Shown: piece after piece, positions 15,774 to 53,877 of the stretch
Layout: every line of letters starts with the position of its first letter
How positions within the stretch are numbered: the stretch's first letter is position 1
Program-made: the position numbers and the translations under genes
Source: Brucella haematophila
Lineage (GTDB): Bacteria > Pseudomonadota > Alphaproteobacteria > Rhizobiales > Rhizobiaceae
Direction: 5' to 3'
Length of the DNA: 64,000 nucleotides
Assembly (NCBI RefSeq): GCF_005938105.1
Contig: NZ_VCPE01000001.1
Location: 372,001-436,000, forward strand
The notes under the pieces: model-generated
The model's database searches: none
Told to the model about the DNA's origin: nothing
Seen by the model: only the letters and a program-made list of their open reading frames with translations

Positions 15774-15853
15774 CAAATGGCAATTTTCTGCATTCCGGTG
15801 CTCACGTACCCAAAAGTACGCTCCGCTCCGGTACTCGAAAATCACCATTTTCG
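15774..15853. repeat. Long imperfect inverted repeat, dispersed-element type
   Basis: Two arms of about 36 bp (15774-15809 and 15816-15853) pair imperfectly around CCAAAA; the innermost CGTAC/GTACG pairs perfectly. The layout, with CACGTAC and AGTACGCTCCGCTCCGGT, resembles palindromic intergenic repeats I associate with Brucella/Ochrobactrum genomes. It lies just after ssuB and could act as its terminator. From 15854 to 16030 I see only the operator-like sites described separately. Confidence 0.6.
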
Positions 15854-15991
15854 CACTCACATGCCGCTTTTTGATTCAGACTCTAAGCGATATCCCCCAA
15901 AACATGATATACAAACGCTGCGATCAGAATTGATCGCGGCGCGAAGCCTTGCTGGCTCTTGACAGCAACTGCGATATCGATAAATTCCAAC

Positions 15992-16002
15992 TGGACTAGT
16001 GG
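15992..16002. promoter_or_regulatory. Putative operator of the tetronate GntR regulator, copy 1
   Basis: TGGACTAGTGG lies 28 bp upstream of the chosen gntR start (16031) in a stretch rich in CCAGT/ACTGG half-sites. The related TGGACAAGTGGTCC occurs at 21674-21687. Repetition of TGGACWAGTGG at two promoters of related function suggests a regulator site. Confidence 0.45.
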
Positions 16003-16030
16003 AAAGACCAGTGGGTCAGTGGGAACTGCG

Positions 16031-30512: not shown

Positions 30513-31354
30513 GCATTATCGACACGCTTCTTTCGCCATTCGAATTTCCGTTCATGGTCAATGCGCTGGTGATCTCGGTCACAGTCTCTATCCCCATGGC
30601 GCTACTGTCCTGTTTTCTGGTTCTCAAGGGCTGGTCGCTGATGGGCGATGCAATCAGTCACGCGGTGTTTCCTGGCGTCGTCCTCGCCTATGTCGTGGGC
30701 TTTCCCTATGCGGTCGGCGCGTTTGTCGCGGGCATGTTCTGCGCCATCGCGACAGGCTTTTTGAAAGATAACAGCCGCATCAAGCAGGATACGGTCATGG
30801 GTGTGGTGTTTTCCGGCATGTTCGGGCTGGGGCTGGTGCTCTATGTCAAAGTGAGGCCGGACGTCCATCTCGACCACATTCTGTTTGGCGATATGCTCGG
30901 TGTTTCGCGGTTCGATATCGGACAGGCGGGCCTCATTGCTCTCCTCACTGTGGCGATCATCGGCATCAAATGGAAAGACTTCCTTTTGCACGCCTTCGAT
31001 CCCGCGCAGGCGAGGGCCGTGGGCCTTCGGGTCAACCTCCTGCATTACGGGCTGCTCAGCCTCATCTCGCTGACGATTGTGGGCGCGTTGCAGGCCGTTG
31101 GCATCATCCTTGCCATCGCCATGCTGATCGCGCCGGGCGCCATTGCGTTTCTTCTGACACGCAAGTTCAGCACCATGCTGGTTCTGTCGTCGGTCATTGC
31201 TGCGGTTGGTTCTTTCACAGGCGTCTATCTGTCGTTCTTCATCGACAGCGCGCCTGCTCCGACGATTGTGCTTTTGCTTTCAATGATTTTCGTGGCGGCC
31301 TTCATTTATGCCACGCGCAAGGCAACCCGCGTCGAGGCGTCGGAGATGGCTTGA
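30509..31354 (+). CDS. sitD: Manganese/iron ABC transporter permease
   Basis: 281 residues, second ABC-3 permease (LKGWSLMGDAISHAVFPGVV). It forms a heterodimer with SitC. Last gene of the sit operon. Confidence 0.92.
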   Translation: MSIIDTLLSPFEFPFMVNALVISVTVSIPMALLSCFLVLKGWSLMGDAISHAVFPGVVLAYVVGFPYAVGAFVAGMFCAIATGFLKDNSRIKQDTVMGVVFSGMFGLGLVLYVKVRPDVHLDHILFGDMLGVSRFDIGQAGLIALLTVAIIGIKWKDFLLHAFDPAQARAVGLRVNLLHYGLLSLISLTIVGALQAVGIILAIAMLIAPGAIAFLLTRKFSTMLVLSSVIAAVGSFTGVYLSFFIDSAPAPTIVLLLSMIFVAAFIYATRKATRVEASEMA

Positions 31355-34268: not shown

Positions 34269-35801
34269 ATGCCAGATGGTTCCGCACAGATGAAAAAGCC
34301 GAATATCCTCATTCTCATGGTCGACCAGTTGAACGGGACGTTTTTCCCGGATGGCCCAGCCGACTTTCTGCATGTTCCGCATTTGCGCAAGCTTGCCGAG
34401 CGCTCCACCCGTTTTGGCAATTGCTACACGGCGAGCCCGCTTTGCGCTCCGGCGCGTGCTTCTCTGATGTCGGGTCAATTGCCGTTTCGCACCGGCGTTT
34501 ATGACAATGCAGCCGAATTCTCATCCGAGATACCAACCTATGCACACCACTTGCGCAATGCCGGCTATCAGACAGCGCTTTCCGGCAAGATGCATTTTGT
34601 TGGTCCCGACCAGTTGCACGGCTTCGAGCAGCGTCTGACGACGGATATCTATCCTGCCGATTTTGGCTGGACGCCGGATTATCGCAAACCGGGAGAGCGC
34701 ATCGACTGGTGGTATCACAATCTGGGTTCCATCACCGGGGCCGGTTCTGCGGAAATCACCAATCAGCTCGAATATGATGATGAAGTCGCCTATCAGGCTG
34801 AGGCAAAGCTCTACGATCTGGCGCGAGGCCATGATGAGCGTCCGTGGTGCCTGACCGTCAGCTTCACCCATCCGCATGATCCTTACGTGGCACGCAAGCG
34901 CTTCTTCGACCTTTATGCGGATATTCCCGAACTTGACCCGAAGATCGGACTGCTGCCGGAAAACGAAATCGATCCGCATAGCGAGCGGTTGCTTCGCGCT
35001 TCCAAGGCTGAGGATTACGAACTGACCCGTGAGCAGATCAGGGCAGCGCGGCAGGCCTATTTCGCCAATATTTCCTATGTCGATGAGAAGATCGGCGGTC
35101 TGCTGGATGTGATCGAGCGTTGCAACATGGCAGACGATACGATTGTCATCTTCACCTCCGACCACGGCGATATGCTGGGTGAACGCGGCATGTGGTTCAA
35201 GATGAGCTTTTTCGAAGGCTCCGCACGTGTGCCCTTGATGATCGCCGCGCCACAAATGCCCGTGGGCCTGATCGATACGCCCGCCTCAACGCTGGACGTG
35301 TTGCCGACACTGGCCGATCTGGCAGGGATCGACCTCAACGGTATCATGCCATGGACGGACGGCGTTTCGTTGCTGGAGGTTGCGACCGGCACGAAGGAAC
35401 GCGGTGCGGTGCCATGCGAATATGCGGCTGAAGGCACGGTTGCGCCGATGGTTTCGTTGCGTGACGGACAATGGAAGATCAATCTCTGCCATGTTGACCC
35501 ACCGCAATTGTTCAATCTCGCGGATGATCCGGATGAACTGCACAATCTGGCGGAAAGCCCGGAACATCGCGTGATACTTGAACAACTGATGGAAAAGGCG
35601 CTGGGGCGCTGGAACCTCGATCTCTACGATGCGCATGTTCGCGCCAGTCAGGCCCGCCGCCATGTGGTCTATCCGGCTTTGCGCAACGGGGCATATTATC
35701 CGTGGGACTACCAGCCGCTGCAAAAGGCGTCGGAACGCTATATGCGAAACCACATGGACCTGAATGTGCTGGAGGACAACCAGCGCTTTCCGCGCGGATA
35801 A
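34269..35801 (+). CDS. betC: Choline-sulfatase
   Basis: 510 residues of the type I sulfatase family. The formylglycine site is C59-A-P-A-R63. Choline-sulfatase hallmarks include ILMVDQLNGTFFPDGPADFL, the LSGKMHFVGPDQLHGFE stretch, FTSDHGDMLGERGMWFKM and the C-terminal RNGAYYPWDYQPL. It hydrolyses choline-O-sulfate to choline and sulfate in the cytoplasm, giving the precursor of glycine betaine. ATGs at 34269 and 34290 are both possible; neither has a clear ribosome-binding site. betI, betB and betA are not in the window. Confidence 0.93.
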   Translation: MPDGSAQMKKPNILILMVDQLNGTFFPDGPADFLHVPHLRKLAERSTRFGNCYTASPLCAPARASLMSGQLPFRTGVYDNAAEFSSEIPTYAHHLRNAGYQTALSGKMHFVGPDQLHGFEQRLTTDIYPADFGWTPDYRKPGERIDWWYHNLGSITGAGSAEITNQLEYDDEVAYQAEAKLYDLARGHDERPWCLTVSFTHPHDPYVARKRFFDLYADIPELDPKIGLLPENEIDPHSERLLRASKAEDYELTREQIRAARQAYFANISYVDEKIGGLLDVIERCNMADDTIVIFTSDHGDMLGERGMWFKMSFFEGSARVPLMIAAPQMPVGLIDTPASTLDVLPTLADLAGIDLNGIMPWTDGVSLLEVATGTKERGAVPCEYAAEGTVAPMVSLRDGQWKINLCHVDPPQLFNLADDPDELHNLAESPEHRVILEQLMEKALGRWNLDLYDAHVRASQARRHVVYPALRNGAYYPWDYQPLQKASERYMRNHMDLNVLEDNQRFPRG

Positions 35802-35809: not shown

Positions 35810-36784
35810 TTATGAAAGCGCCAGCAGCGTGTCAGCGGCGTCGCCATCGATGATGAGGCCGTTGACGATGCCGCTTTTCAGAAGCGCCTTGGCCGCCGCT
35901 GCTTTCTCCTGTCCGGCGATGAGCAGCACGACCTGAACCTTCTTCAGCTCGGCAAAGCTGAGTGCGATGGTGCGCTGGTTCATCTCGTGCTCGACCTGCT
36001 GTCCGTCCTTGTCGAAGAAAATGCCGTTGGTGTCGCCGATTGCACCGGCGGCACGCAGGCTTTCCAGTTCTGATCTGCTAAGCATGTTCTGGCGGCGCAA
36101 CAAGGAATCCTCCGTCAACTCGCCAGCGCTGATGAAGCAAACAGAAGCCGTGCGGGCAATCTCGAGCGCACGCGCCACAGAGCGCTGCGAAATGAGCACT
36201 TTTCGGTCTTCTGCGGAATCAGCGATGAACGGAACCGGCAGGAAAAAGCCTTGCCCGCCCGTCCGCCGCGCCAGCATGTGCACAACTTCAAATGGATTAT
36301 AGGCGGAGTTCGCGGTCAGCGATCCCATGACGGAGATGAAGCGCGCCTGTGGCGCGCGTACACCTGCAAGTTGCAATGTCATCTGCTCGATGGTTCGGCC
36401 CCAGCCGGTGCCGATGGTGGCTTCCTCATTGTCGGCCAGAAAGCTTTTCAGATAGGTGGCGGCAGCAACACCGACGGCCCGGAATGAAACCTGCTTGCGG
36501 ATTTCCGATGCCGTATCTTCATCGGCATGAAAGCCAAATGGCGGTGTTGAAATACAAAAATCCAATCCATGGCGGTGCATCAGCTCGTTTTCCACGGGCA
36601 ATGTGCCTGCGTTCTGGTGGTCAATGGAAATGCTGACAAGGCCGCTTTCGCGGGCCTCGCCCAATATCTTGTTCACGCGCGCCCGGGTCAGACCCAGTCG
36701 GGATGCAGTCGCCTCCTGGTTGAATCCGCCAACGTAATAGAGCCACGCCACGCGCACCATGAGGCTGTCTTCGGATTCACTCAT
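35810..36784 (-). CDS. SorC/DeoR-type sugar-binding transcriptional regulator
   Basis: 324 residues: an N-terminal helix-turn-helix (YYVGGFNQEATASRLGLTRA, then RVNKILGEAR) and a SorC sugar-binding domain (TIGTGWGRTIEQMTLQLAGV). It is divergent from the sugar importer operon, and a 13-bp perfect inverted repeat lies between them at 36811-36849. I start at 36784 after GAGGGA. Regulators of this type usually bind a phosphorylated sugar, which agrees with the FGGY kinase in the operon. It is the same family as EryD of the Brucella erythritol operon. Confidence 0.9.
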   Translation of the reverse strand: MSESEDSLMVRVAWLYYVGGFNQEATASRLGLTRARVNKILGEARESGLVSISIDHQNAGTLPVENELMHRHGLDFCISTPPFGFHADEDTASEIRKQVSFRAVGVAAATYLKSFLADNEEATIGTGWGRTIEQMTLQLAGVRAPQARFISVMGSLTANSAYNPFEVVHMLARRTGGQGFFLPVPFIADSAEDRKVLISQRSVARALEIARTASVCFISAGELTEDSLLRRQNMLSRSELESLRAAGAIGDTNGIFFDKDGQQVEHEMNQRTIALSFAELKKVQVVLLIAGQEKAAAAKALLKSGIVNGLIIDGDAADTLLALS

Positions 36785-36810
36785 CTGTCCCTCGTTCAAT
36801 TTCTGCACGA

Positions 36811-36849
36811 CAAATTACAAATGTATTTCTGTTTGACATTTGTAATTTG
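36811..36849. promoter_or_regulatory. SorC operator, 13-bp perfect inverted repeat
   Basis: CAAATTACAAATG (36811-36823) and CATTTGTAATTTG (36837-36849) are exact inverse copies with a 13-bp spacer. The site overlaps a likely -35 box (TTGACA, 36833-36838), so binding of the regulator would block or tune the plus-strand promoter. Confidence 0.75.
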
Positions 36850-37119: not shown

Positions 37120-38073
37120 ATGGGTTCGGGACTTTTCAGGAAAACCATGGCTGTCGCGGCTCTGGCCATGCTCATGGGCACGGCAAGCGCGTCGGCCACC
37201 AATGTGGCCTGGGTGCATTCCAACGCTGCGGCGCAGTCCGAGCAGCGTGCAAAAGCTGGCTTTGATGCCTGGCTCAAGGAAACCAACAAGGATTGGAGCA
37301 TTAGCGTTCTGGATAGTGGCGGCTCGGGCGAACGCACGGCGTCGAACATTCAGGATGCTGCCTCGCGCGGTGTAGACGCGATCATCGTCAGCATGTCGGA
37401 TCTGCGCGCCTCGCGTGCCGCCATCGATTCCGCTGTTGCGGCCAAAATCCCGGTATTCGCCATCGATAGCGGTCAGGTTGACGGCGTTGTGGTCGATGTC
37501 ACGACCAATAACTGGGCCATGTCGGCTGATGTGTCGCCCTATCTGCTCAATGAAATGGGCGGCAAGGGCAATCTGATCTTCCTGCGCATGGCAGAGCACC
37601 ACGGCACCCGCAAGCGCGGCGATGTGATGGAAACCGTGCTGAAGGAATATCCGGAAGTGAAGGTCATCGCCGAGCACAATATCGATTACACGGCCTTCTT
37701 CGAAGACACGACCAAGACCATGCAGGACTATGCATCGCGCTTTGGCGAAGACATCAATGCCGTCTGGGCGCCTTGGGATGAGCCTGCACAGGCAGCCATC
37801 AACGCGCTGAACGCCGCCGGGTTGAAGAATGTCAAAGTCATCGGCATCGACGGCCATCCGCAGGCGATCGAAGAGGTCTGCAAGCCTGACAGCCTGATGA
37901 TCGCAACGGTTTCGCAGCCATTTGAAAAGATGGGCGCACAGACCGGCGAATGGATCGAGAGCATTGTGGTCAAGAAGGAAGACGCTGCAAAGGTCATTCC
38001 GTCGAAGACTGTTTATCTCGATGCGCCGCTCGTCACCAAGCAGAACTGCAAGGATTTCCTCCCGAAGAAGTAG
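37120..38073 (+). CDS. Sugar ABC transporter substrate-binding protein (RbsB-like)
   Basis: 317 residues with a signal peptide ending ASASA. It is a periplasmic-binding protein of the Peripla_BP_4 type (GVDAIIVSMSDLRASRAAID, NAVWAPWDEPAQAAINALNA, VIGIDGHPQAI). These bind ribose-, xylose- or polyol-like ligands. GGAGGAAA precedes the ATG at 37120; the frame opens at 37054. First gene of the long operon that runs to 47495. Confidence 0.9.
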   Translation: MGSGLFRKTMAVAALAMLMGTASASATNVAWVHSNAAAQSEQRAKAGFDAWLKETNKDWSISVLDSGGSGERTASNIQDAASRGVDAIIVSMSDLRASRAAIDSAVAAKIPVFAIDSGQVDGVVVDVTTNNWAMSADVSPYLLNEMGGKGNLIFLRMAEHHGTRKRGDVMETVLKEYPEVKVIAEHNIDYTAFFEDTTKTMQDYASRFGEDINAVWAPWDEPAQAAINALNAAGLKNVKVIGIDGHPQAIEEVCKPDSLMIATVSQPFEKMGAQTGEWIESIVVKKEDAAKVIPSKTVYLDAPLVTKQNCKDFLPKK

Positions 38074-38099
38074 GCAAGCCCCCAAAGTTGCCTGCATCT

Positions 38100-38130
38100 G
38101 GCCGGAGCGTGAACGTTCCGCGCTCCGGCC
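38100..38130 (+). terminator. Intercistronic hairpin after the sugar binding-protein gene
   Basis: GGCCGGAGCG (38100-38109) pairs with CGCTCCGGCC (38121-38130) around an 11-nt loop, followed by CCTTT. It lies between the binding-protein and ATPase genes and should lower read-through into the rest of the operon. Confidence 0.65.
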
Positions 38131-38165
38131 CCTTTAAAGTAGATTGAATTCATGGGAGTTCTCCG

Positions 38166-39680
38166 ATGGCGGTAAGCCTGTCGCAGATCGTTATGTCCTA
38201 TCCCGGAACGCTGGCGCTGGATCAGGTGAGCGCCGAGTTTCGGTTTGATGAGGTGCATGGACTGATCGGAGAAAACGGCGCCGGAAAGACCACTCTGGTC
38301 AGTATTCTTGGCGGCAGCAAAAGCCAGACTTCGGGCACGATCACCATTGATGGCACTGAAGTGAAGCTTGCAAGTGCCGGTGATGCGCTGCGCAAGGGTA
38401 TCGCGCATGTGTCGCAGGAGGGCAGTCTCGTTCCCGGGCTGACCGGTGCGCAGAATATTCTGCTGGGCGACGAGCCTCGCATGGGCCTTGGTGTGATCGA
38501 CAAGCGCAAGCTGCTGTCGCGCGCCAATGACTTGCTCAAGCGCTGGTTCCCGCAGGTTTCCATCGACCTCGACGAGCAGGTCGATATGCTGCCTATGGCA
38601 GATCAGAAGATCATCGAAATTGTCCGCGCACTGCGTGGCAATGTTCGTCTGCTCATTCTCGATGAACCCACGGCGACATTGCCTGCACGCGAAAAAGAGA
38701 GCCTTTGGGAGATCATCAAGACCCTGCCGCAGCAAGGGGTTGGCATCGTTTTGATCAGCCATTTCCTTTCTGAAATCAAGGCGTTGAGCGATAGAATTAC
38801 AGTTCTGCGCGATGGCCGTCACATTGCGACGCTTCAGGCTACGGAAGCGAGCGAAGCCGGGTTGATCGACATGATGCTGCAACGCTCGGGCGGCAAGACG
38901 GCGATGGCGCAGGAGACCAGTCAAAACCGCAGTTTTGGCCCCGTTGTGCTGGAGGTCAGCGATTGGCATGCCGGCGGTCTGCACGTTGACAATTTTTCCA
39001 TCCGTGCAGGTGAGATCGTCGGTCTGATCGGCTTGACTGGCGCTGGCCATTTTGGCTTTGCCCGTTCGCTTTATGCGGCAAGCGGTATCACCAGCGGCAC
39101 ATGCCGTTTTCAGGGTGAAACGATTGCCCGGATCGATGCGCGCACCATGCAAAAAAAGGGTGTTGCGCTGGTTCCCGATCACCGCATGGAATATTCGCTG
39201 ATCGGCGATTGGGATGTGCGTGAAAACCTTGCCATGGTGCATCCGTCCTTTGCGGCCTTGGGCGGCACAGGCGTGCTGTCGATGCGCCGTGAAGCGCAGG
39301 AAGCCGACCGCACCATGCAGCTTTTGAACGTGAAGGCGCATTCGCGCAATCAGTTCGTGAAGGATCTGAGCGGCGGTAACAAGCAAAAGGTGTCGATCGG
39401 CAAGTGGCTTTACGGTGCAGACGATCACTACCGGCTGATGATTTTCATCGAGCCGACCGAGGGTGTCGATATCGGTGCCAAGCGTGAAATTCACGCACAG
39501 ATGCGCAGGCTCGCCGACAAGGGCGTGGCCATTCTGGTCACCTCGTCCGACCTTCTGGAAATTGCCGACGTGGCAGACCGCGTCATCCCCTTTGTGAATG
39601 GCTCTCCGGGCGCGGAAATTCCGCGTGAGGCCTTTTCCGAAGCGAAGTTTATTGCCGCAATGGCAGGAGTCATCCAATGA
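38166..39680 (+). CDS. Sugar ABC transporter ATP-binding protein (two ABC domains, RbsA type)
   Basis: 504 residues. Domain 1 has Walker A GENGAGKTT and ILDEPTATL, but its signature reads LPMADQK, further from LSGGQ than usual for RbsA-like domains. Domain 2 has a degenerate Walker A (GLTGAGHFGF) and a good signature LSGGNKQK. So the two composite ATP sites are unequal, as in other RbsA-type proteins but more so. It overlaps the permease gene by 4 bp. Confidence 0.9.
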   Translation: MAVSLSQIVMSYPGTLALDQVSAEFRFDEVHGLIGENGAGKTTLVSILGGSKSQTSGTITIDGTEVKLASAGDALRKGIAHVSQEGSLVPGLTGAQNILLGDEPRMGLGVIDKRKLLSRANDLLKRWFPQVSIDLDEQVDMLPMADQKIIEIVRALRGNVRLLILDEPTATLPAREKESLWEIIKTLPQQGVGIVLISHFLSEIKALSDRITVLRDGRHIATLQATEASEAGLIDMMLQRSGGKTAMAQETSQNRSFGPVVLEVSDWHAGGLHVDNFSIRAGEIVGLIGLTGAGHFGFARSLYAASGITSGTCRFQGETIARIDARTMQKKGVALVPDHRMEYSLIGDWDVRENLAMVHPSFAALGGTGVLSMRREAQEADRTMQLLNVKAHSRNQFVKDLSGGNKQKVSIGKWLYGADDHYRLMIFIEPTEGVDIGAKREIHAQMRRLADKGVAILVTSSDLLEIADVADRVIPFVNGSPGAEIPREAFSEAKFIAAMAGVIQ

Positions 39681-40681
39681 ATACACAGAACCCCGCCGTT
39701 GCCCCGCAATCGTCGCGTCATGCGCAGAGCTTCGGCAAGAAGCTCAAGGGCGAATGGCTGCTGAAATATTCAACGCTCTTCGTGTTGCTCCTGCTGTTCG
39801 CGGGCTTTTCGCTGACAGTGGACCGCTTTCTGACAGCCAACAATCTGCTCAATATTCTTCAGCAGATCGCCATGCTCACCATCGTCGGTGCGGGCCTGAC
39901 CTTCGGTTTTGCCGCACGCGAAATGGACCTTTCGGTCGGTTATATGGTCGGCATGGCGGGCATTTTGGTGCCACTGCTGCTGGTCGCGGGTACACCTTTG
40001 CCATTGGCCTTGCTGGCTGGATTGGGGGCAGGGTTTGTCGTGGGGGCCGTCAATGCGGCGCTCGTCACCCTTGTCGGAGTGCCTTCGCTGATTGCCACGC
40101 TTGCCATAGGCTCCATTCTTTATGGCATCAACTTTCTGATGACCGGCGGACGGGCGATCTATGGTGGCCTTCCGGCCAGCTATCTCTGGCTGGGACAGGG
40201 ACAGCTTTTCGGTATTCCCGTGCTGGCTTATGCAATGGTCATCGTCGTGTTTGTCGCCTGGTTCATCATGGAGCGTACCGTCTTCGGTCGCTACATCTAC
40301 GCGGTTGGCGGCAATCTCAAGGCTGCCGAACTTTCGGGCGTCAATGGTCGCTTCTATCGTGCGGCTGCACTCATCGTCTGCTCGATCTTTGCGGCGGTCG
40401 CGGGTGCGCTTCTGGCGGCGCGTCTCGGCTCCGGCCAGCCCAATGCCGGTGAGCGCTATCTCCTCGACGGTCTTGCAACAGTTTTCATTGGCATGACCAT
40501 GTTTCGTCCCGGCACGGCAACGGTTGCCGGAACCTTCTTCGGGGCGCTGTTCATCGGCGTCATCAATAACGGCCTCAATCTGATTGGCATGGACACCTAC
40601 ATCCAGAGCATCGTGAAAGGTCTCATCATTCTCGTCGCGGTCGCGGTTGTTTCGCGCACCACCAAACTAAAGCTCCTGTGA
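39677..40681 (+). CDS. Sugar ABC transporter permease (RbsC type)
   Basis: 334 residues with about ten membrane segments. The RbsC signature is visible in VGAGLTFGFAAREMDLSVG and in IYAVGGNLKAAELSGVNGRF. Single permease gene, so a homodimer is expected. Confidence 0.92.
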   Translation: MNTQNPAVAPQSSRHAQSFGKKLKGEWLLKYSTLFVLLLLFAGFSLTVDRFLTANNLLNILQQIAMLTIVGAGLTFGFAAREMDLSVGYMVGMAGILVPLLLVAGTPLPLALLAGLGAGFVVGAVNAALVTLVGVPSLIATLAIGSILYGINFLMTGGRAIYGGLPASYLWLGQGQLFGIPVLAYAMVIVVFVAWFIMERTVFGRYIYAVGGNLKAAELSGVNGRFYRAAALIVCSIFAAVAGALLAARLGSGQPNAGERYLLDGLATVFIGMTMFRPGTATVAGTFFGALFIGVINNGLNLIGMDTYIQSIVKGLIILVAVAVVSRTTKLKLL

Positions 40682-40700
40682 GGGCACTGAACCGGACATC

Positions 40701-41768
40701 ATGAAAAATTTGCAACAGACAGGTCTGTCGGAGGCGCACGTGCAAAATCCGAGTAATTCCAATCTTCTCGAACTCTATAGAACGATGCGTCGCATCCGCA
40801 CTTTCGAAGAACGCGTCGGCGAACTCTTCGTGCGCGGCCAGACGGCAGGTTCGATGCTTCACCTTTCCATCGGTGAAGAAGGCGCTGCCGCCGGTGTTTG
40901 TGCCGCCATGCAGCCGCAGGACACGTTCACAACCCATCATCGCGGCCACGGTATCTTTCTGGCGCGTGGCGCTGATCCGAGGCAGATGATGGCCGAAATC
41001 GGCGGCAAGGAAACCGGCTATTGTCACGGCAAGGGCGGTTCCATGCACATTGCCGACATGGCGCTCGGTCATCTGGGTGCCAACGCCATTGTCGGTGGCG
41101 GTATTCCCGCCGTCGTGGGTGCGGGACTGTCGAGCAAATATCTGAAGAAGAATTCCGTTTCGCTCGCTTTCTTTGGCGACGGCGCGATGCAGCAGGGCAT
41201 TCTCTATGAGAGCATGAACATGGCGGCTCTGTGGGGTCTGCCGGTGGTGTTCGTCTGCATCAACAACCAGTACGGCATGGGAACGCGGGTCGATCAGGCG
41301 ACCGCCAACACGGCTTTCGATCAGCGCGCGCATGCGTTCGGCCTTAACGGGGCTGTTGTCGATGGCATCGATGTCGAGGAAGTCAAAAATACCGCTCAAG
41401 GGTTGATTGACGATGCGCGGCTCGGCAAGCCGGGCTTTCTGTCGGTCACCTGTTACCGGTTCTTCGGTCATGCGCGCATGGACAAGAGCCCATATCGCGC
41501 AGAGGCAGAGGAACTGGAAGGACGCAAGAAGGACCCGGTGAAGTTCACCCGCGATCGGCTTGTTTCATCCGGATTGGCGCAGGAAGCTGCACTCGACGCC
41601 ATGGATGGCGACATCACGGCCGAGATGGACGCCACCATCGATTTCACTGTCGAGTCCAAGGCGCCGCCGCTCACCTCCATGTTCAAGGATGTTTACGCGG
41701 TGGGCGAACCTGAGCCCGAACCCGTTCGCACCCGTATCGACCGCGTACTTTCCAAGGATGAAGCATAA
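40701..41768 (+). CDS. acoA: Thiamine-diphosphate dehydrogenase E1 alpha subunit, acetoin dehydrogenase type
   Basis: 355 residues of the E1 dehydrogenase alpha family (acetoin, pyruvate or 2-oxoacid). The ThDP motif runs from GDGAMQQG through NMAALWGLP to INNQYGMGT. CHGKGGSMHIADMALGHLGA is typical for acetoin/pyruvate E1 alpha. It forms a heterotetramer with the next gene product. In this operon it may act on a sugar-derived acyloin, 1,2-diketone or 2-oxo acid rather than acetoin. It overlaps acoB by one base. The start is uncertain within the first 20 residues. Confidence 0.87.
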   Translation: MKNLQQTGLSEAHVQNPSNSNLLELYRTMRRIRTFEERVGELFVRGQTAGSMLHLSIGEEGAAAGVCAAMQPQDTFTTHHRGHGIFLARGADPRQMMAEIGGKETGYCHGKGGSMHIADMALGHLGANAIVGGGIPAVVGAGLSSKYLKKNSVSLAFFGDGAMQQGILYESMNMAALWGLPVVFVCINNQYGMGTRVDQATANTAFDQRAHAFGLNGAVVDGIDVEEVKNTAQGLIDDARLGKPGFLSVTCYRFFGHARMDKSPYRAEAEELEGRKKDPVKFTRDRLVSSGLAQEAALDAMDGDITAEMDATIDFTVESKAPPLTSMFKDVYAVGEPEPEPVRTRIDRVLSKDEA

Positions 41769-42742
41769 TGGTTGCCATGACTTACCGCGACGCGCTGCGC
41801 AAAGCGCTGGATGACGCCATGGCGGAAGACAACACCATCGTCGTGATCGGCGAAGAGGTGGGACGCTATGGTGGCGCTTATGGTGTTACGAAGGATCTCA
41901 TCGGCAAATACGGCCCTGAACGCCTGATCGACACCCCGATATCCGAACCGGCCATTGTGGGTGCCGCGGTTGGCGCTGCCATGACCGGGCTGCGTCCGGT
42001 TGCCGAGCTGATGTATATCGATTTTCTCGGCATGACGATGGATCAGCTTGCCAATCAGGCAGCCAAGATCCGCTATATGTTTGGCGGTCAAATTGGCGTG
42101 CCGATGGTTCTGCGCACCCAGGGCGGCACCGGACGTTCCGCTGGTGCCCAGCACTCGCAGAGCCTCGAAGCCTGGATCATGCATACGCCGGGTCTGCGTC
42201 TTGCCATGCCAGCCACGGTTCAGGACGCTTACCATCTGCTGCGCCAGAGCCTGACGAAGCCCGACCCTGTGGTCTTTATCGAGCACAAGGCGCTCTACAC
42301 CCGCAAGGAAGAGGTCGATCTCGACGCCGAGCCGCTGGCATGGGGCAAGGCCGCTGTGCGCCGTACCGGCAAGGACCTCGTCATCGTCACCTATTCGCGC
42401 CAGCTGCATTACGCACTCGACGCCGCCGAGAAGCTGTCCGCCAAGGGCATTGAAGCGACGGTCATCGACCTGCGCACGCTCAATCCGCTGGATTTCGACA
42501 CCGTGCGCGAACATGTCGAACGCGTCGGCAAGGCGATGGTTGTCTCGGAAGGCGTGATGACTGCCGGTGTTGCGGCAGAGCTTGCCGCTCGCATTACCGA
42601 GGAATGCTTCGACTACCTCGAACAGCCGGTGGTGCGTGTTGCCGGTGAGGACATTCCGATTTCAGTTTCGCAGGAGCTTGAAACCGGTAGCGTTCCGACG
42701 ACCGATTTCATCCGCTCCGTTGCCGAGAGAATGTTGTCATGA
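41768..42742 (+). CDS. acoB: Thiamine-diphosphate dehydrogenase E1 beta subunit, acetoin dehydrogenase type
   Basis: 324 residues of the transketolase-like pyrimidine-binding family: VIGEEVGRYGGAYGVTKDL, DTPISEPAIVGAAVGAAMTG and TQGGTGRSAGAQHSQSLEAW. Completes the E1 component with acoA. Overlaps acoC by 4 bp (ATGA). ATG at 41777 is an alternative start. Confidence 0.9.
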   Translation: MVAMTYRDALRKALDDAMAEDNTIVVIGEEVGRYGGAYGVTKDLIGKYGPERLIDTPISEPAIVGAAVGAAMTGLRPVAELMYIDFLGMTMDQLANQAAKIRYMFGGQIGVPMVLRTQGGTGRSAGAQHSQSLEAWIMHTPGLRLAMPATVQDAYHLLRQSLTKPDPVVFIEHKALYTRKEEVDLDAEPLAWGKAAVRRTGKDLVIVTYSRQLHYALDAAEKLSAKGIEATVIDLRTLNPLDFDTVREHVERVGKAMVVSEGVMTAGVAAELAARITEECFDYLEQPVVRVAGEDIPISVSQELETGSVPTTDFIRSVAERMLS

Positions 42743-44043
42743 GTGAACGGATTCTGAAAATGCCACGCCTTGGCGAGACGATGGAGGAGGGCAAGATTGT
42801 CGGCTTCCTCGTCAAGCCGGGTGACAGTTTCAAGCGCGGGGATTCGATCATTGAAATCGAAACCGACAAGACCGTAGCCGAGTTTCCGGCATTGGGTGAC
42901 GGCACGCTCAATGAGTGGATCGGCGCTATTGGCGATCATGTGGTTGTCGGTGCGCCTCTGGCCCGCATCGACATCGGCACTGGACCCGATTGGACCAGCG
43001 ACGGTGAAGATGAAGCGCCGGAAGCCCAAGCGGCGACCGCTCAAGACGCTGAAGCAGTTCAGGATTTGGTGGAAACTTCCGTTGCCAAACCTGCGGCTTC
43101 GCCAAACAGCGGCGAGCGTGTTCGCGCAACGCCGCTTGCTCGCAAGGTTGCTCGCCAGAATGGCATCGACATCAATTCGCTTTCGGGCAGCGGGCGTCGG
43201 GGACGGATCGAGAAGGAAGACGTGCTTGCGGCTTCCAGCGGTTCGAAATCCAATAGTGCTGCGCATTTTGTCGATCTTGCAAATGGTCGTGTGGCCTATC
43301 TGGATCAGGGGCCGAAGAACGGTCGTACAATCCTCTTGCTGCACGGTTTCTCTGGCGACCGGACGACCTGGAGTGGCATTGCAGCGGGTCTGCGACGCGC
43401 GAATTGCCGCGTTATCGTGCCTGATCTGCCTGCCCACGGACTGACGACAATCGATGCTACGAACGCGGCTGAACTCAGCGCCTTCCTGCCTGCGTTCCTT
43501 GATGCTCTGGGAGTTGCCGAGGTTGATGTCGTCGCGCATTCTCTTGGTGCCGTTGCTGCAACGCAATTTGCTGATGCCCATGCAGACCGCATTTCGAGCC
43601 TGACGCTTATCGCGCCTGCGGGACTTGGTTCCGAAGTCGATGCCGGCTTTATATCCGGTATGGCCAATGCAACGACGGCTGGCGAAGTCAGCCATCTGTT
43701 GCGCCGTATCGCGGCCAAGCCAGTCGAGCTTTCGCCGGAACTGGCGGCTGAATTTGCGAAAACCATGGCCAAGGGGCGTCTCAAGGCGCTTTCCGCAGCG
43801 ATTGTCGGCCCTTCGGGGCAAACCTCCGACATCGTTCCGGCGCTGGAAAAGCTTTCCCGTGTAAAGCCGGTTCGTGTTCTGGTTGGTCTGTTAGATCGCA
43901 TCATCCCATGGCAACAGGCGACCGCATTGCCATCGTCGATTGCCGTGCATTTTCTCGGCCAGTCCGGCCATATGCCGCAATGGGACCAGTCCAAAGAAGT
44001 GCTTGATCTGATTATAAATTCCACGGGAGGCTCCCATGACTGA
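42739..44043 (+). CDS. acoC: E2-type lipoyl protein fused to an alpha/beta hydrolase (AcoC type)
   Basis: 434 residues in three parts: a lipoyl domain (1-79; lipoyl lysine K44 in ETDKTVAEF), a peripheral subunit-binding domain (about 129-167; RATPLARKVARQNGID), and an alpha/beta hydrolase domain (about 180-434) instead of the usual acyltransferase core. The hydrolase has LLLHGF, nucleophile elbow AHSLG, Asp in GLLDRIIP and His in GQSGHMPQW. This layout is known from acetoin dehydrogenase E2. It would transfer the acyl group to CoA. No E3 gene is in the operon, so a shared dihydrolipoamide dehydrogenase is needed. Overlaps the next gene by 8 bp. Confidence 0.88.
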   Translation: MSERILKMPRLGETMEEGKIVGFLVKPGDSFKRGDSIIEIETDKTVAEFPALGDGTLNEWIGAIGDHVVVGAPLARIDIGTGPDWTSDGEDEAPEAQAATAQDAEAVQDLVETSVAKPAASPNSGERVRATPLARKVARQNGIDINSLSGSGRRGRIEKEDVLAASSGSKSNSAAHFVDLANGRVAYLDQGPKNGRTILLLHGFSGDRTTWSGIAAGLRRANCRVIVPDLPAHGLTTIDATNAAELSAFLPAFLDALGVAEVDVVAHSLGAVAATQFADAHADRISSLTLIAPAGLGSEVDAGFISGMANATTAGEVSHLLRRIAAKPVELSPELAAEFAKTMAKGRLKALSAAIVGPSGQTSDIVPALEKLSRVKPVRVLVGLLDRIIPWQQATALPSSIAVHFLGQSGHMPQWDQSKEVLDLIINSTGGSHD

Positions 44044-44374
44044 CGATGTCAGGCTTCGTCTGAAAGAAGCGCAAGCACGGCTTGGTGCATTTGCAAAATC
44101 TGCACCCGAACTGATGAGCGGCTTTGCCAAGGTCAGCAAGACCGCAACGGCGGTTGGCGCGTTTTCATCGGCGCAGCGCGAATTGATCGCGGTCAGCATT
44201 GCCGTGGTGAAGGGATGTGAAGACTGCATTCTCTACCACGTGGACGCGGCCATCCGGCACGGCGCAACCGAAAAGGAACTGATCGAAGCGCTTGAAGTCG
44301 CGGTTGAAATGGGGGGCGGCCCGGCAGTTATGTATGCGGGCAAGGCGCTGGAAGCATTTCGCGGACTGAGTTGA
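44036..44374 (+). CDS. AhpD-like carboxymuconolactone decarboxylase family protein
   Basis: 112 residues with the AhpD-like redox motif C61-E-D-C64 and H68 (KGCEDCILYHVDAAI). AhpD proteins accept electrons from lipoyl groups, so its position right after a lipoyl-bearing E2 gene, overlapping it by 8 bp, is suggestive of reoxidation or protection of the complex. That role is inference; such small CMD proteins are also found alone. Confidence 0.85.
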   Translation: MTDDVRLRLKEAQARLGAFAKSAPELMSGFAKVSKTATAVGAFSSAQRELIAVSIAVVKGCEDCILYHVDAAIRHGATEKELIEALEVAVEMGGGPAVMYAGKALEAFRGLS

Positions 44375-44437
44375 AAATTGCGCGATGAGGCATGCGAAGA
44401 CTGGAGGAGTTTTCGCAGCCGCCTCGGGAGGAATTGA

Positions 44438-45931
44438 ATGGCTTATTTTCTCACCGCCGACGGAGGAACGGAAAGTATCCGGGCGCGGGTTTACGACTTG
44501 TCGGGCACTTGCCTTGCAAGCGCAGCGGTTCCCTATGAGACGAAGTTTTCCAGCGGCGCGCGCGCGGAGCAAAATCCGGAAGACTGGTGGTCATGCTTTG
44601 TCCAGGCCGCACGCAAGGCGATCGCGGAATCGGCTGTCGACCCATCGGCAATTGAAGCCATCACGCTGGCGACGACAAGCTGTACCGTCGTGGCTCTGGA
44701 TGCCGACGGCAAGCCACTGCGTCCGTCGATCATCTGGATGGATGTTCGCGCAAGTGCCGAGGCGGATGCCGTGCTTGCCACCGGCGATCAGGCCTTGCAG
44801 GCCAATGGCGGCGGGCGAGGGCCGGTTTCAGCGGAATGGATGATCCCGAAGGCGCTGTGGATCGCGCGCAATGAGCCGGAGATCTTCGAAAAGGCAGATA
44901 CAATCTGCGAATATCAGGATTTCATGACCCTGCGCCTGACCGGTGAAAAGGCGGCGAGCCTCAACAACGTCTCGCTTCGCTGGCACTATTCGACGGATCG
45001 CGGCGGCTTTCCGGTCACGCTTCTGGAGAAACTCGGCCTAGCTGCCTTGCTACAGAAATGGCCGTCCCGCGTAGTCGCGCCCGGGGAGATTATCGGCGGA
45101 CTTTGCGCATCGGCTGCTTCCGAACTTGGCCTTTCGCAGAGCGTGAAGGTGGTACAGGGCGGGGCCGATGCACTCATCGGCATGATCGGTCTCGGTGTTG
45201 CCAAACCGGGTCAGCTTGCGCTGATAACCGGTTCATCTCACTTGCAATTTGGTGTTGCAGACAAGCCTCTGCACGCACCGGGCATCTGGGGCAGCTATCC
45301 CAATATGGTCTATCCGGACCGCTATATTATCGAGGGCGGCCAAACTTCAACCGGGTCGATTATCGCATGGCTTGGGCGCATGATGAACGGCACCATGGAT
45401 ATGGAAGCGTTGAACGCCAAGGCGGCGGCGCTGGAGCCGGGCGCAGAAGGCCTTCTGGTGCAGGATCATTTTCAGGGTAACCGCACGCCCTATACCGATG
45501 CCTTGTCTCGCGGCGCAATTGTCGGTCTGACGTTGGCGCATGAACCGCACCACATCTTCCGTGCGATCATGGAAGGTATCAGTTTCGGCACGCGCGCCAT
45601 TCTCGATGCAATGGCCGAGGCCGGTTATCGCGGGCAGGAAATCACCGTTGGCGGTGGCGCCAGCGCATCGCCGCTCTGGCTGCAAATCCATGCGGACACG
45701 GCTGGGCTGCCGGTCTGCGTGCCGCAATCGCGCGATGCGCCTTCTGTCGGGGCTGCGGTTCTTGCTGCGCATGGGGCTGGTCATTTTGCGAGCATAGATG
45801 ATGGCATTGCCGCCATGGTGAGGCCGGGCAAACGCATCGAGCCACGCCCGCGCGAGACCGCGCTCTACAATGAAATCTATCAGCAATATCGAGCGCTCTA
45901 TCCGGCATTGAAGGCCGTGCAGGCTGCCTGA
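44438..45931 (+). CDS. FGGY-family carbohydrate kinase
   Basis: 497 residues with the two-domain FGGY fold. The N-terminal phosphate region is FLTADGGTESIRARVYD and the C-terminal FGGY signature is in ITVGGGASASPLWLQIHAD. Substrates in this family are ketopentoses, polyols and erythritol. GGGAGGA precedes the start. With a SorC regulator this recalls eryA-eryD of Brucella, but the rest of the operon is different. Substrate unknown. Confidence 0.9.
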   Translation: MAYFLTADGGTESIRARVYDLSGTCLASAAVPYETKFSSGARAEQNPEDWWSCFVQAARKAIAESAVDPSAIEAITLATTSCTVVALDADGKPLRPSIIWMDVRASAEADAVLATGDQALQANGGGRGPVSAEWMIPKALWIARNEPEIFEKADTICEYQDFMTLRLTGEKAASLNNVSLRWHYSTDRGGFPVTLLEKLGLAALLQKWPSRVVAPGEIIGGLCASAASELGLSQSVKVVQGGADALIGMIGLGVAKPGQLALITGSSHLQFGVADKPLHAPGIWGSYPNMVYPDRYIIEGGQTSTGSIIAWLGRMMNGTMDMEALNAKAAALEPGAEGLLVQDHFQGNRTPYTDALSRGAIVGLTLAHEPHHIFRAIMEGISFGTRAILDAMAEAGYRGQEITVGGGASASPLWLQIHADTAGLPVCVPQSRDAPSVGAAVLAAHGAGHFASIDDGIAAMVRPGKRIEPRPRETALYNEIYQQYRALYPALKAVQAA

Positions 45932-45953
45932 GGCATAGTAGCGGGAGGGCAGA

Positions 45954-46724
45954 ATGCTCAAAGATTTTCAACTAACCGGTAAGCGCGCTGTCATAACCGG
46001 CGGCGCAAGGGGTATCGGGCGAGCCATTGCCGAGCTTTTCGTTGAAGCCGGCGCAACGGTCATTATCACGGACCGCGATGAAGCGGCGGGCAAGCAGACG
46101 GTCGCGGAACTCAATGCGCGCCGTCCGTCATCTGCAAGCCTCTACATTCTGGATGTCACGGATCGCGATGCAGCGGAGCGAACAGCCGAAGCGATTGCTG
46201 CCGAGGTCGGCGTTCCCGACATTCTGGTCAACAATGCGGGCATTGTTCGCAACGGCCCGGCGAGCGAAACCTCTGAAGCAGACTGGTGCGCGGTGATCGA
46301 CGTCAATCTTAACGGCGTCTTTTATTGTGCTCAGGCCTTTGGCAAACGCATGGCTGCTGTCGGGCGCGGCGCTATCGTCAACATCTCTTCCATGTGCGGC
46401 GAGATCGTCGTCTATCCGCAGCCGCAGGTTGCCTATAACGCCGCCAAGGCCGGGGTAAACCTCATCACCAAGTCTTTGGCTGTTGAATGGGCAAAGCAAG
46501 GCGTGCGGGTCAATGCGGTCGCGCCAGGTTACACCGCAACGGAACTGACGCTCGCTGGCCGCAGCAACGAAGAATGGTTTTCAACCTGGATGCGCATGAC
46601 GCCACAGGGGCGGCTGGGAGAGCCGCGTGAGATCGCGAATGCCGTTCTTTTTCTGGCATCCGACGCCGCAAGTTTCGTGACGGGAACAGTACTTGCCGTA
46701 GACGGCGGTTACACCGCGCTTTGA
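45954..46724 (+). CDS. SDR-family oxidoreductase
   Basis: 256 residues with TGGARGIG at 16-23, NNAGI, NISSMCG and Y-x3-K in VAYNAAK. Classical SDR of the sugar or polyol dehydrogenase kind. GGGAGGG precedes the start. It shares the operon with the kinase and a second SDR, so two successive oxidation or reduction steps on the imported compound are likely. Confidence 0.87.
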   Translation: MLKDFQLTGKRAVITGGARGIGRAIAELFVEAGATVIITDRDEAAGKQTVAELNARRPSSASLYILDVTDRDAAERTAEAIAAEVGVPDILVNNAGIVRNGPASETSEADWCAVIDVNLNGVFYCAQAFGKRMAAVGRGAIVNISSMCGEIVVYPQPQVAYNAAKAGVNLITKSLAVEWAKQGVRVNAVAPGYTATELTLAGRSNEEWFSTWMRMTPQGRLGEPREIANAVLFLASDAASFVTGTVLAVDGGYTAL

Positions 46725-46739
46725 TTTTGGGAGAATGAA

Positions 46740-47495
46740 ATGACTGAACAGGCAAAAATTGCTCTCGTCACCGGCGCAAGTCGCGGTATTGGCCGAGCCA
46801 TCGCAATTGGCATGGCCAAGCGTGGCTTCGATGTGGCGATCAACGATATCGAGCGTCAGAAAGATGCATTGCAGGAAGTGGCGCAGGAAATCGAGGCCAC
46901 CGGTCGCCGCGCATTAATCGTCTATGCCGATGTGAGCAATAAGGCTGACGTCGAGGCGATGGTCAAGAAGACGGCTGATGCATTTGGTCGTATCGATGCA
47001 ATCGTCAACAATGCGGGTATTTTGATCGCCAGCGATGTCGAACACCTTAAGGAAGAGCACTGGGATAGCGTCCTCGATGTCAATGCGAAGGGAACGTTTC
47101 TCGTTGTGCAGGCTGTGCTGCCTTATATGAAGCAGCAGAAATACGGTCGCATCGTCAATATCGCTTCCATCGGCGGCAAGCACGGCGCGCCTGAACAGGC
47201 CCATTATTCCGCATCGAAAGCTGCCGTCATGGGTTTTACCCGCGTTCTCGCGCAGGAGGTTGGCACCTATGGGATTACAGCCAACTGCATCTGCCCGGGG
47301 ATTATCCTGACCGATATGGGGCGGGTCAATCTGGATGATGTTGCCGTGCGCCAGTCCTGGCAGGAAAAGACAGCCATGCGCCGCATTGGCGACCCGGAAG
47401 ATGTCGTCGGACCGGTCGCATTTCTCGCTTCAGATGACGCGGGCTTCGTGACTGGCCAGAGCCTCAACGTCGATGGCGGTATCGTGTTGAGCTAG
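46740..47495 (+). CDS. SDR-family oxidoreductase
   Basis: 251 residues, TGASRGIG at 12-19, NNAGI, NIASIGG and Y-x3-K in HYSASK. Resembles 2,3-butanediol or polyol dehydrogenases and FabG-like proteins. GGGAGAATG leads into the start. Last gene of the operon; a strong hairpin follows. Confidence 0.87.
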   Translation: MTEQAKIALVTGASRGIGRAIAIGMAKRGFDVAINDIERQKDALQEVAQEIEATGRRALIVYADVSNKADVEAMVKKTADAFGRIDAIVNNAGILIASDVEHLKEEHWDSVLDVNAKGTFLVVQAVLPYMKQQKYGRIVNIASIGGKHGAPEQAHYSASKAAVMGFTRVLAQEVGTYGITANCICPGIILTDMGRVNLDDVAVRQSWQEKTAMRRIGDPEDVVGPVAFLASDDAGFVTGQSLNVDGGIVLS

Positions 47496-47590: not shown

Positions 47591-48844
47591 TCAAAGCAGC
47601 CCATTGCGCAGTTTGAAGCCCCGGAGACCACCAACATTGACGCTTCGGCCTCGATTGAGCAATTCGCGCATAATGGGTTCGCGCTGCTGCTCTGGCATAT
47701 AATCCAGAATGCGTGCACAGTCATGCTCGTAGAGGAGGCCGCGAAGAAGCAGATCGCGCTTGATCAGCGGGCTGCCCATGATCCTGTGAAACAGTCCAAA
47801 GCCGTAGTGAACCTGGCTGCCGTTCATGATGATCCCGATCATATGGTTGACCAGAACCTCTTGTCTCACTTGTTCGCCGACAAGCCGAGCACGGTCATCC
47901 GCAGGTGGCTTTTGGTTTAGCCCCTGCATCGCCTTTGAGTATTGGCTGATGGTTGGCGTCAGGCCAGCAGTGCTGATGTTCGCGGGAGCTGCATGCCGCT
48001 TGGAGCGTTTGGACAGCATTCTCCCGGTGTAGATCGCGCCTGCCAGAAGCGGTTGAAGTTCATAGCTGCGGAAAGCACCATGCGGCAGATAGCGAAGGCT
48101 CGACACAATGTCCGGCATTGCCATTTTGTCGAGTTTGAGGGCCAGCTTATCGGTTGAGTAAAGCACATCCATGCTGTAGCCACAGCGCGCGAAGCACTCT
48201 GATAATGCAACCTCGCCCTTCCTGATGGCGTGAGGTCTGATATCGTAAGGGCGATATTGCGACCAGAAACGTTGCACAGCAGCGTCACTAAACACTCCAC
48301 CGGACACGCTAAAGGCGTAACTGCCGACGTGGTGGACGAACTCGTGATTTTCGTTGGTGCCGACGACGTCATACTTGCTGTCGACAAGCGAAACGATCAT
48401 GTCTCGAAGACCATCTCCGGGAACATACATGACGCTGTCGTTAAAATAGAGCAGCCGCCGAGGCTTCAGACCTTCAGCATTCAGTAACAATGTAGCTGCG
48501 CGGTAGGCGCCGAAATCACGACCGATGTTCTGCCGAACAAGAATGCGCTGAGCACTGGACTTGATTGCATCATATTCCGGCTGTGTCATTCTGCCATTAC
48601 AGATGACAATGGTATTTATATTGTGATTGCGCAGTTCGTTCAAGAGATGCAGAAAATCAGGTGTAACACCAAACTTGTTATACTTTACAACGACTGCATA
48701 TAGATCCCCATTCGGCTGACGAATGACTTCATCAGCCAGGAAAGTCGGCTTTTTCTGCGCGAAAATATGCGGCATCTGAACAAGCTTGGCACTGCGTATA
48801 TACGCGCGCACAGCCAACCAGTTCATTGCTTTCCCAATGCCCAT
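47591..48844 (-). CDS. Rhamnan synthesis protein F-like protein (RgpF family)
   Basis: 417 residues. The core (NTIVICNGRMTQPEYDAI, LVRQNIGRDFGAYRAAT, LLYFNDSVMYVP, GGVFSDAAVQRFWSQY) is the RgpF domain found in polysaccharide and O-antigen synthesis proteins. It is likely a glycosyltransferase-associated or glycosyltransferase protein acting at the cytoplasmic face on surface glycan. It is divergent from the methyltransferase gene at 48952. No signal peptide or membrane segment seen. Confidence 0.8.
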   Translation of the reverse strand: MGIGKAMNWLAVRAYIRSAKLVQMPHIFAQKKPTFLADEVIRQPNGDLYAVVVKYNKFGVTPDFLHLLNELRNHNINTIVICNGRMTQPEYDAIKSSAQRILVRQNIGRDFGAYRAATLLLNAEGLKPRRLLYFNDSVMYVPGDGLRDMIVSLVDSKYDVVGTNENHEFVHHVGSYAFSVSGGVFSDAAVQRFWSQYRPYDIRPHAIRKGEVALSECFARCGYSMDVLYSTDKLALKLDKMAMPDIVSSLRYLPHGAFRSYELQPLLAGAIYTGRMLSKRSKRHAAPANISTAGLTPTISQYSKAMQGLNQKPPADDRARLVGEQVRQEVLVNHMIGIIMNGSQVHYGFGLFHRIMGSPLIKRDLLLRGLLYEHDCARILDYMPEQQREPIMRELLNRGRSVNVGGLRGFKLRNGLL

Positions 48845-53567: not shown

Positions 53568-53877
53568 TCTTGTCATATGTCATCCTTGTCGAATGATGCC
53601 TCGTAACGAGTCCGGAGATTAAACCGCTCGGTCAGCGCAAGCTGGCGCGGCTTGCCAGTTCCGCAGTAAGCCGAACAGATGAGCCATCTCAAAAGCAGAC
53701 TGATTTGGACTTTCGAGACGGAATCTTGACCGCGCGAGCTTTCCGTCTGCAGTCGAGTTGCTCGTGTCTGCGTTGATTCAACAAACCGGAATGTTGGTTG
53801 GTCCCAAAACTCTTGCCGGATTCAATAGTTTAGCAAATCCTCGGATGTGACGAATAACATTTGGCGGGCGATTGCGA

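Follow-up and report, generated by a model that had tools for sequence, protein, structure and literature searches.

The acetoin dehydrogenase complex (AcoA, AcoB and AcoC with an E3) and the Lsr system for autoinducer-2 (AI-2) are the described systems with which we compared an operon of Brucella haematophila. The operon occupies positions 37120-47495 (plus strand) of a 64,000-nucleotide stretch (assembly GCF_005938105.1, contig NZ_VCPE01000001.1, positions 372,001 to 436,000), hereafter the window, in a 5.5 Mb genome of 55 contigs. It encodes a sugar importer, E1alpha and E1beta, an E2, a CMD/AhpD-like protein, an FGGY kinase and two short-chain dehydrogenases/reductases (SDRs), all as open reading frames (ORFs) without interruption. 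It shares with the acetoin complex an alpha/beta E1, an AcoC-type E2 that scores over the model cut-off and an HRGHG motif, and the acetoin operons of two Paracoccus likewise contain a CMD gene and an SDR. However, E1alpha residues 51, 56, 193, 259 and 262 differ from those of acetoin dehydrogenase in every row compared. Two acetoin operons (loci L169 and L174) carry an AcoX-like protein, a butanediol dehydrogenase and sigma-54-type regulators, whereas the window has a kinase, a sugar importer and a SorC-type regulator. Family scans revealed no acetoin or butanediol genes and no AcoX-like protein among the window operon genes.

The Lsr system resembles the window in its sugar-type ATP-binding cassette (ABC) importer, FGGY kinase and SorC-type regulator. 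Its end step also forms acetyl-CoA, but the window operon has E1/E2 in place of the thiolase. We considered Lsr membership and rejected it: the kinase does not group with LsrK in a tree and scores 180 bits to the LsrK model, whose cut-off is 528, and no LsrF or LsrG was found among the operon genes, to which this search was limited. Enzymes that use thiamine diphosphate (ThDP) to act at C2-C3 of ketose phosphates are known. Purified pyruvate dehydrogenase (PDH) makes 1-deoxy-D-xylulose from pyruvate and D-glyceraldehyde (PMC3424233). A mutant E. coli PDH permits production of 1-deoxy-D-xylulose 5-phosphate (DXP) in vivo, while the wild-type PDH makes too little to replace DXP synthase (DXS), and XylB phosphorylates 1-deoxyxylulose (same source).

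We propose, with a probability of about one half, that 37120-47495 is an inducible catabolic operon in which E1/E2 would cleave the product of the kinase, a 1-deoxypentulose 5-phosphate such as DXP, to acetyl-CoA and glyceraldehyde 3-phosphate. A first-pass annotation, made from the sequence, had placed the importer, kinase, SDRs and E1/E2 in one operon; each of these ORFs is present and family scans agree. Its gene set was incomplete, omitting the CMD ORF, the divergent regulator and the putative operator. The features are as follows.

35810-36808, minus strand, divergent: SorC/DeoR-type sugar-binding transcriptional regulator (PF04198, 179 bits)
36815-36845, no strand: putative operator, perfect inverted repeat TTACAAATGT-N11-ACATTTGTAA, between the regulator and substrate-binding protein genes
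37120-38073, plus strand: RbsB-like (CUT2) substrate-binding protein (SBP; PF13407), 79-83% identical to five relatives
38166-39680, plus strand: sugar ABC transporter ATPase (AraG, YtfR, XylG and RbsA models, all under cut-off)
39677-40681, plus strand: sugar ABC transporter permease (RbsC and AraH models, under cut-off)
40701-41768, plus strand: ThDP-dependent E1alpha (PF00676), non-acetoin pocket S51, S56, M193, R259, K262
41768-42742, plus strand: ThDP-dependent E1beta (NF006667, 355 bits, cut-off 321)
42739-44043, plus strand: AcoC-type E2 (NF011457, 348.7 bits, cut-off 307, plus Pfam domains)
44036-44374, plus strand: CMD-family (AhpD-like) protein, 112 aa (PF02627, 71 bits)
44438-45931, plus strand: FGGY kinase (PF00370/PF02782), on the AraB side of the family by tree
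45954-46724, plus strand: SDR1 (PF13561), missing from L020 and L023, both of which keep SDR2
46740-47495, plus strand: SDR2 (PF13561), the more conserved of the two SDRs

We screened 297 genomes of the order for the E1alpha (E ≤ 1e-115) and the kinase (E ≤ 1e-140). Each was found in 14 genomes, and the 13 genomes with both always had them on the same contig, less than 4 kb apart; absences are not firm, as only the best candidates per genome (up to six E1alpha and five kinase) were scored. The E1alpha-only genome (G297) has a kinase fragment beside E2 at a contig end (L115), and the kinase-only genome (G218) has no E1alpha beside its kinase (L119). With 8 kb of the operon as query, six of six matched plasmid records (75-78% identity) kept the same gene order. 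They come from Rhizobium hidalgonense, Rhizobium sp. CIAT894, two Shinella, Sinorhizobium meliloti and a record labelled Roseateles. One of these loci (L010) is unannotated, its matching order being read from sequence, and another (L009) ends within the kinase. Upstream neighbours are common to both Rhizobium records; flanks otherwise differ among the plasmid records. The Sinorhizobium copy (L012, strain Ak57, a 3.7-Mb record labelled pSymB) has its E2 annotated as two separate ORFs (14881-16199). The Roseateles copy (L013) is a rhizobial-type operon; its record, marked UNVERIFIED_ORG, is named as Roseateles sp. XES5, possibly in error.

A contig scan with a kinase alignment gave a capped list, of which the best 80 loci were retained. 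Among these, 26 kinases were at least 52% identical: the same E1alpha accompanied 19, a contig end prevented a call in three (L032, L049, L089), and it was absent from four (L017, which is cut down, L034, L035 and L038). Some loci share sequence (L015/L016; also L023/L106, L024/L111 and L048/L115, these last from two collections). Two Brucella tritici records have a kinase with 92% identity to the window kinase, which makes an Ochrobactrum-type member of the genus the probable host, and 18 of 34 other genomes of the genus carry it full-length or nearly so at ≥90% identity. Adjacent genes of the window operon are spaced by -8 to +92 bp. These data confirm that 37120-47495 is one operon and support its being one functional unit.

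The loci fall into several types in which the feeder genes change. Type A, to which the window belongs, has the importer, E1/E2, CMD, kinase and SDRs, with SDR2 but no SDR1 in L020, L023 and L114. In type A' (L028, L030, L031, L107, L108) the kinase and E1/E2 lead, followed by the importer and SDR2; L030 stops before this last part, and L028 has SDR1 too. Type B loci (L024/L111, L029, L033, L048/L115, L109, L110, L112, L113) have an importer with an SBP matched by RhaS and LsrB models, the kinase with E1/E2 and, if the contig is long enough, DhaK/DhaL; no SDR was seen in the stretches examined. They also have an epimerase-like gene, which in L024 scores 156 bits against a cut-off of 300 for a psicose 3-epimerase model and which was not seen in L029 or L112. 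Type C (L117, L118) has a FucA-like gene with the kinase and E1, and also DhaK/DhaL in L117. L035 and L038 pair the kinase with a FucA-like gene and have no E1, and L116 and the Verrucomicrobiota locus L036 are further variants. DhaK/DhaL accompany the kinase, usually also E1/E2, in L109-L113, L033, L117 and L035. Neither SDR lies beside kinase, E1 and E2 in L024, L029, L033, L036 and L048, the flanks of L029 and L048 being short. Thus, the kinase and E1/E2 usually form a conserved core, whereas the genes that feed it, among them importers and SDRs, differ between loci. Because this pair is constant, the simplest order places cleavage after phosphorylation, and this is our main reason for doing so.

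We compared 73 E1alpha rows at pocket positions set by sequence alignment alone. By alignment, position 51 corresponds to human PDH F61, and His257 to H263. S51, S56, M193, R259 and K262 are present in all 39 kinase-linked rows, of which 35 are distinct and which fall into 25 clusters at 90% identity. DXR-II is an alternative form of DXP reductoisomerase. All 19 rows from operons with a DXR-II-family gene have T51, S56, M193, K or R at 259 (13 K, 6 R) and R262. The two groups thus share a small residue at 51 and two basic residues at 259/262 (39/39 and 19/19). The acetoin pocket (F51, Y56, E193, E259) occurs in none of the 39 kinase-linked rows versus all nine acetoin-type rows, where position 262 is A (6), P (1) or E (2). 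Butanediol or acetoin genes adjoin four of those nine (L168, L169, L170, L174); L167 was assigned by an NAD-kinase-like gene and its E2 annotation, and L049, L173, L175 and L176 by similarity. The remaining six rows (positions 51, 56, 193, 259, 262) are the PDH of the genome, entered twice (F/Y/M/M/P), a branched-chain-type E1 (Y/gap/I/T/D), Clostridioides (T/S/M/K/A), Phaeobacter (L/Y/E/V/I) and Natrinema (F/C/E/E/P). As aligned, the window E1 pocket is unlike that of acetoin E1 and shows the same kind of change as the DXR-II-operon E1s. This likeness points to a 1-deoxyketose phosphate as substrate, not a diketone or 2-oxo acid as in the substrate range given by the first-pass annotation, and the basic residues at 259/262 would suit a phosphorylated substrate.

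The same genome holds one of these DXR-II-linked operons. A second AcoC-type E2, over cut-off (431 bits), lies ~94 kb from the window operon, and the E1s of this sister set are 44-45% identical to the window E1s. The feature is:

L146 (G000:C1:503001-517000), 5669-13998: sister E1/E2 set behind a DXR-II-family gene, with a phosphotransferase system (PTS) IIC and a SorC-type regulator

The DXR-II-family gene is immediately upstream of the sister E1alpha and scores 730 bits to the solved chains 3upl/3upy, of which 3upy is B. abortus DXR-II (PMC3847144). Divergent to it are a galactitol-type PTS IIC (437 bits, cut-off 542) and the SorC-type regulator. The solved B. abortus enzyme is matched more closely by another DXR-II copy of the genome (L165, G000:C15:10201-11499; 892 bits). 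We did not find DXR-I in the host genome by a search that finds it in 9 of 14 control genomes. Two functional DXR-II paralogues occur in Ochrobactrum anthropi and in Mesorhizobium loti (PMC3847144). The main text of that paper makes no mention of pyruvate dehydrogenase, genomic context or catabolism.

Across the 297 genomes we found 27 E1alphas of this second type in 26 genomes (E ≤ 1e-115; best candidates per genome scored), 22 of them within 300 bp of a DXR-II-family gene. For the other five, DXR-II is 7.7 kb off in G301 and elsewhere in G245, G190 and G317, and the contig begins there in G197. DXR-II-family genes occur in 55 of the 297 genomes, many without such an E1 adjoining; certain more distant members may correspond to the functionally unassigned DXR-II-like oxidoreductases described in PMC3847144. 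The neighbours of the DXR-II/E1 pairs include PTS genes or an ABC transporter with a PfkB-like kinase (several named by eye). As in the window operon, an acetoin-like E1/E2 is here accompanied by a sugar-type regulator and uptake genes, and the E1alpha has Met193 and basic residues at both 259 and 262; unlike the window operon, these operons have DXR-II in place of the FGGY kinase and SDRs, and their E1alphas are 39-44% identical to the window E1alpha. Since E1/E2 adjoins a DXP enzyme, sugar uptake and a sugar-type regulator, the sister complex would most simply cleave DXP to acetyl-CoA and glyceraldehyde 3-phosphate. We found no description of DXR-II-linked E1/E2 operons in open-licence PMC papers. 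A further sugar-linked E1/E2 set lies on a Clostridioides difficile plasmid record (NZ_CP149737; L172, L171): a SorC-type regulator, acetoin-like E1/E2/E3, PTS IIA/IIB/IIC and a class II aldolase form one run, which adjoins ispD and ispF.

For the window operon we envisage the following route. The SorC-type protein would control the operon at 36815-36845 in response to a sugar phosphate. The ABC importer would take up a 1-deoxypentulose or a reduced form such as a 1-deoxypentitol, which one or both SDRs would oxidise to the 1-deoxyketose, and the FGGY kinase would then yield a 1-deoxypentulose 5-phosphate such as DXP. By the chemistry of the family, ThDP on E1alpha/beta would add to the methyl ketone, C2-C3 would be broken and glyceraldehyde 3-phosphate freed. 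The acetyl unit would pass to lipoyl-E2 and on to CoA, and an E3 encoded elsewhere would reoxidise the lipoyl group; three E3 genes over cut-off lie elsewhere in the genome. The net reaction would be DXP + CoA + NAD+ -> acetyl-CoA + glyceraldehyde 3-phosphate + NADH. This would amount to an oxidative version of the reversed DXS reaction, the first step of isoprenoid synthesis, perhaps used here for nutrition. The proposed complex would pair an alpha/beta E1 with a lipoyl E2 and CoA, belong to a catabolic operon and work in the direction of cleavage. The general idea of import, SDR action, phosphorylation and ThDP-dependent cleavage to CoA had been put forward in the first-pass annotation and fits these data, except that it set the kinase on a side branch, whereas the kinase belongs to the core with E1/E2. 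The same annotation knew of no described pathway with this gene set, and we likewise found no description of kinase-linked E1/E2 cleavage in open-licence PMC papers.

Taking both operons together, we suggest tentatively, and a little less firmly than for the window operon by itself, that such acetoin-dehydrogenase-like E1/E2 complexes are a family of deoxyketose-phosphate dehydrogenases that reverse the DXS reaction oxidatively. The window branch would be fed from 1-deoxypentuloses or 1-deoxypentitols by import, SDR oxidation and the FGGY kinase, and the other branch from 2-C-methylerythritol by import, phosphorylation and DXR-II.

Several observations weigh against the DXP route. By itself, this route would not account for the two SDRs and the CMD gene of the window, or for the DhaK/DhaL, epimerase-like and FucA-like genes of the other types. 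Some kinases lack this E1 (L017, L034, L035, L038, L119), and some copies in the same genus are incomplete: L100 has regulator and SBP matches immediately before the kinase and no E1/E2 in between, L102 has no SDR match within 1.5 kb after the kinase, and in G006 the kinase is in pieces. The pocket signature is not exclusive, as M193 also occurs in the PDH of the genome, and the Clostridioides row (K259, A262) does not match K262. In trees, the kinase-linked E1alphas and E1betas each form one clade (100/100 in both). A sister relationship between kinase-linked and DXR-II-linked E1s had support of 96/86 for E1alpha, was not recovered for E1beta and had 62/32 when concatenated. The sister-clade argument was tried in these three ways, and with its inconsistent support we did not use it as proof.

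The nature of the sugar bears on the first two alternatives, and for both the kinase is informative. It scores under the cut-off of every FGGY model matched (bits/cut-off: XylB 296.7/380, ribulokinase 282/428, FGGY pentulose kinase 263/409). A tree that includes seven E. coli FGGY kinases places it with AraB (100/100), apart from XylB, LsrK, FucK, RhaB, GlpK and LyxK, the E. coli branches being long. Two other kinase roles were considered and set aside. For a galactitol/tagatose route, the L034 kinase adjoins a TagK-like PfkB gene (302.6 bits, cut-off 420), SDRs and a GatZ-like gene (by eye) but no E1, and L034 looks like another use of a related kinase. A ketose 1-phosphate, suggested by the type C FucA-like gene, was dropped because types A and B have no FucA-like match.

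The substrate could instead be another 1-deoxyketose: a 1-deoxyhexulose (e.g. from L-fucitol or L-rhamnitol), or SDR-reduced AI-2 or 1-deoxyosone, phosphorylated at the far end and cleaved to acetyl-CoA and the matching aldose phosphate. The same pocket and core data would fit this substrate, the type B SBPs score with RhaS and LsrB, and the epimerase-like, FucA-like and DhaK/DhaL genes of types B and C suggest that more than one sugar is handled. We regard it as unlikely, as the kinase groups with AraB and not with FucK, RhaB or LsrK (subject to the long E. coli branches), and the operon genes include no LsrF or LsrG.

Slightly less probable again is an ordinary pentulose or pentitol, whereby the SDRs would oxidise a pentitol, the kinase would give a pentulose 5-phosphate, and E1/E2 would release glycolyl-CoA and glyceraldehyde 3-phosphate. 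The AraB-side kinase, the RbsB-like SBP and SDRs of the polyol-dehydrogenase kind agree with this, and the smaller residues at 51 and 56 would admit a hydroxymethyl group too. However, D-pentulose phosphates already feed the pentose phosphate pathway, so little would be gained from such a complex, and a methyl ketone is what the similarly changed pocket of the DXR-II-linked E1s suggests.

An arrangement in which the kinase and E1/E2 act on different molecules, as the first-pass annotation had suggested, appears improbable. For example, the SDRs could supply E1/E2 with an unphosphorylated acyloin or diketone, and the kinase could act on the other fragment or a second substrate. The scaffold most resembles those of acetoin and PDH complexes, and a second kinase, DhaK/DhaL, is present in type B and C loci; yet kinase, E1 and E2 are kept together in five loci without either SDR (L024, L029, L033, L036, L048; short flanks in L048 and L029), and the basic residues at 259/262 would suit a phosphorylated substrate. 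Finally, that an acetoin operon merely adjoins an unrelated sugar operon, the case named by the first-pass annotation as refuting its idea, is very improbable: automatic annotation does call the E2 an acetoin dehydrogenase subunit, but gene order in many genomes contradicts it. Six plasmid records carry the same set, other loci have its two halves interleaved and reshuffled as one, 13 genomes have both E1alpha and kinase, the genes are close or overlapping, there is one probable operator, and the E1 pocket is of a non-acetoin kind.

Returning to the operon proposed for 1-deoxypentulose catabolism, we assessed its control region. The regulator matches B. subtilis-DeoR and LsrR models under their cut-offs and occupies the same position in the type A loci examined. 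Searched at ≤3 mismatches, the core of the 36815-36845 repeat occurs once in the 64-kb window, with 0 mismatches, where 0.26 matches are expected by chance and 23 of 100 shuffles gave at least one. Of 15 type A intergenic regions, eight (the window, L009, L011, L013, L014, L015, L018, L026) show both 8-base arms with unchanged spacing, two (L012, L027) have the arms as a direct repeat, and five a single arm. Among five intergenic regions of types B, C and A', four have no arm and L108 a single one. From this pattern, the repeat is probably the operator. A promoter and terminator scan showed no excess (6 promoter-like sites; shuffle mean 4.1, sd 1.9).

Further details concern individual genes. 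The SBP start at 37120 was set by relatives, an in-frame GTG also being present at 37054, and solved structural relatives, which we considered as a guide to its ligand, give none. A Pfam scan of the E2 found one lipoyl, an E3-binding and an alpha/beta-hydrolase acyltransferase domain. A second lipoyl-like segment is present in the E2 of four aligned relatives and two Brucella tritici records; the window E2 has one lipoyl domain. The CMD-family ORF had no NCBIfam match at E ≤ 1e-20. Both SDRs match meso-butanediol-dehydrogenase models under cut-off, and one of them could still have an acetoin reductase role. Elsewhere in the window are two ABC-3 permeases (29646-31354), a sulfatase with a choline-sulfatase C-terminal domain (34269-35801), an RgpF-like protein just after SDR2 on the opposite strand (47591-48844), and a probable autotransporter ORF of 2423 aa that has passenger-associated transport repeats (53872-61143).

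Plants and the atmospheric oxidation of isoprene are sources of 2-C-methylerythritol and related methyltetrols. If the proposed reading is true, cleavage of a sugar phosphate by a lipoyl dehydrogenase complex leads directly to acetyl-CoA, and bacteria would have a degradation route for 1-deoxyxylulose and, via the sister operon, for 2-C-methylerythritol. DXR-II would be catabolic in these operons, and intermediates of the methylerythritol phosphate (MEP) pathway would serve as nutrients in addition to being isoprenoid precursors. The evolution of DXR-II in strains already having DXR-I has been a puzzle, as redundant activities should be unfavoured (PMC3847144). A catabolic role beside E1/E2 would answer this puzzle for the operons seen here.

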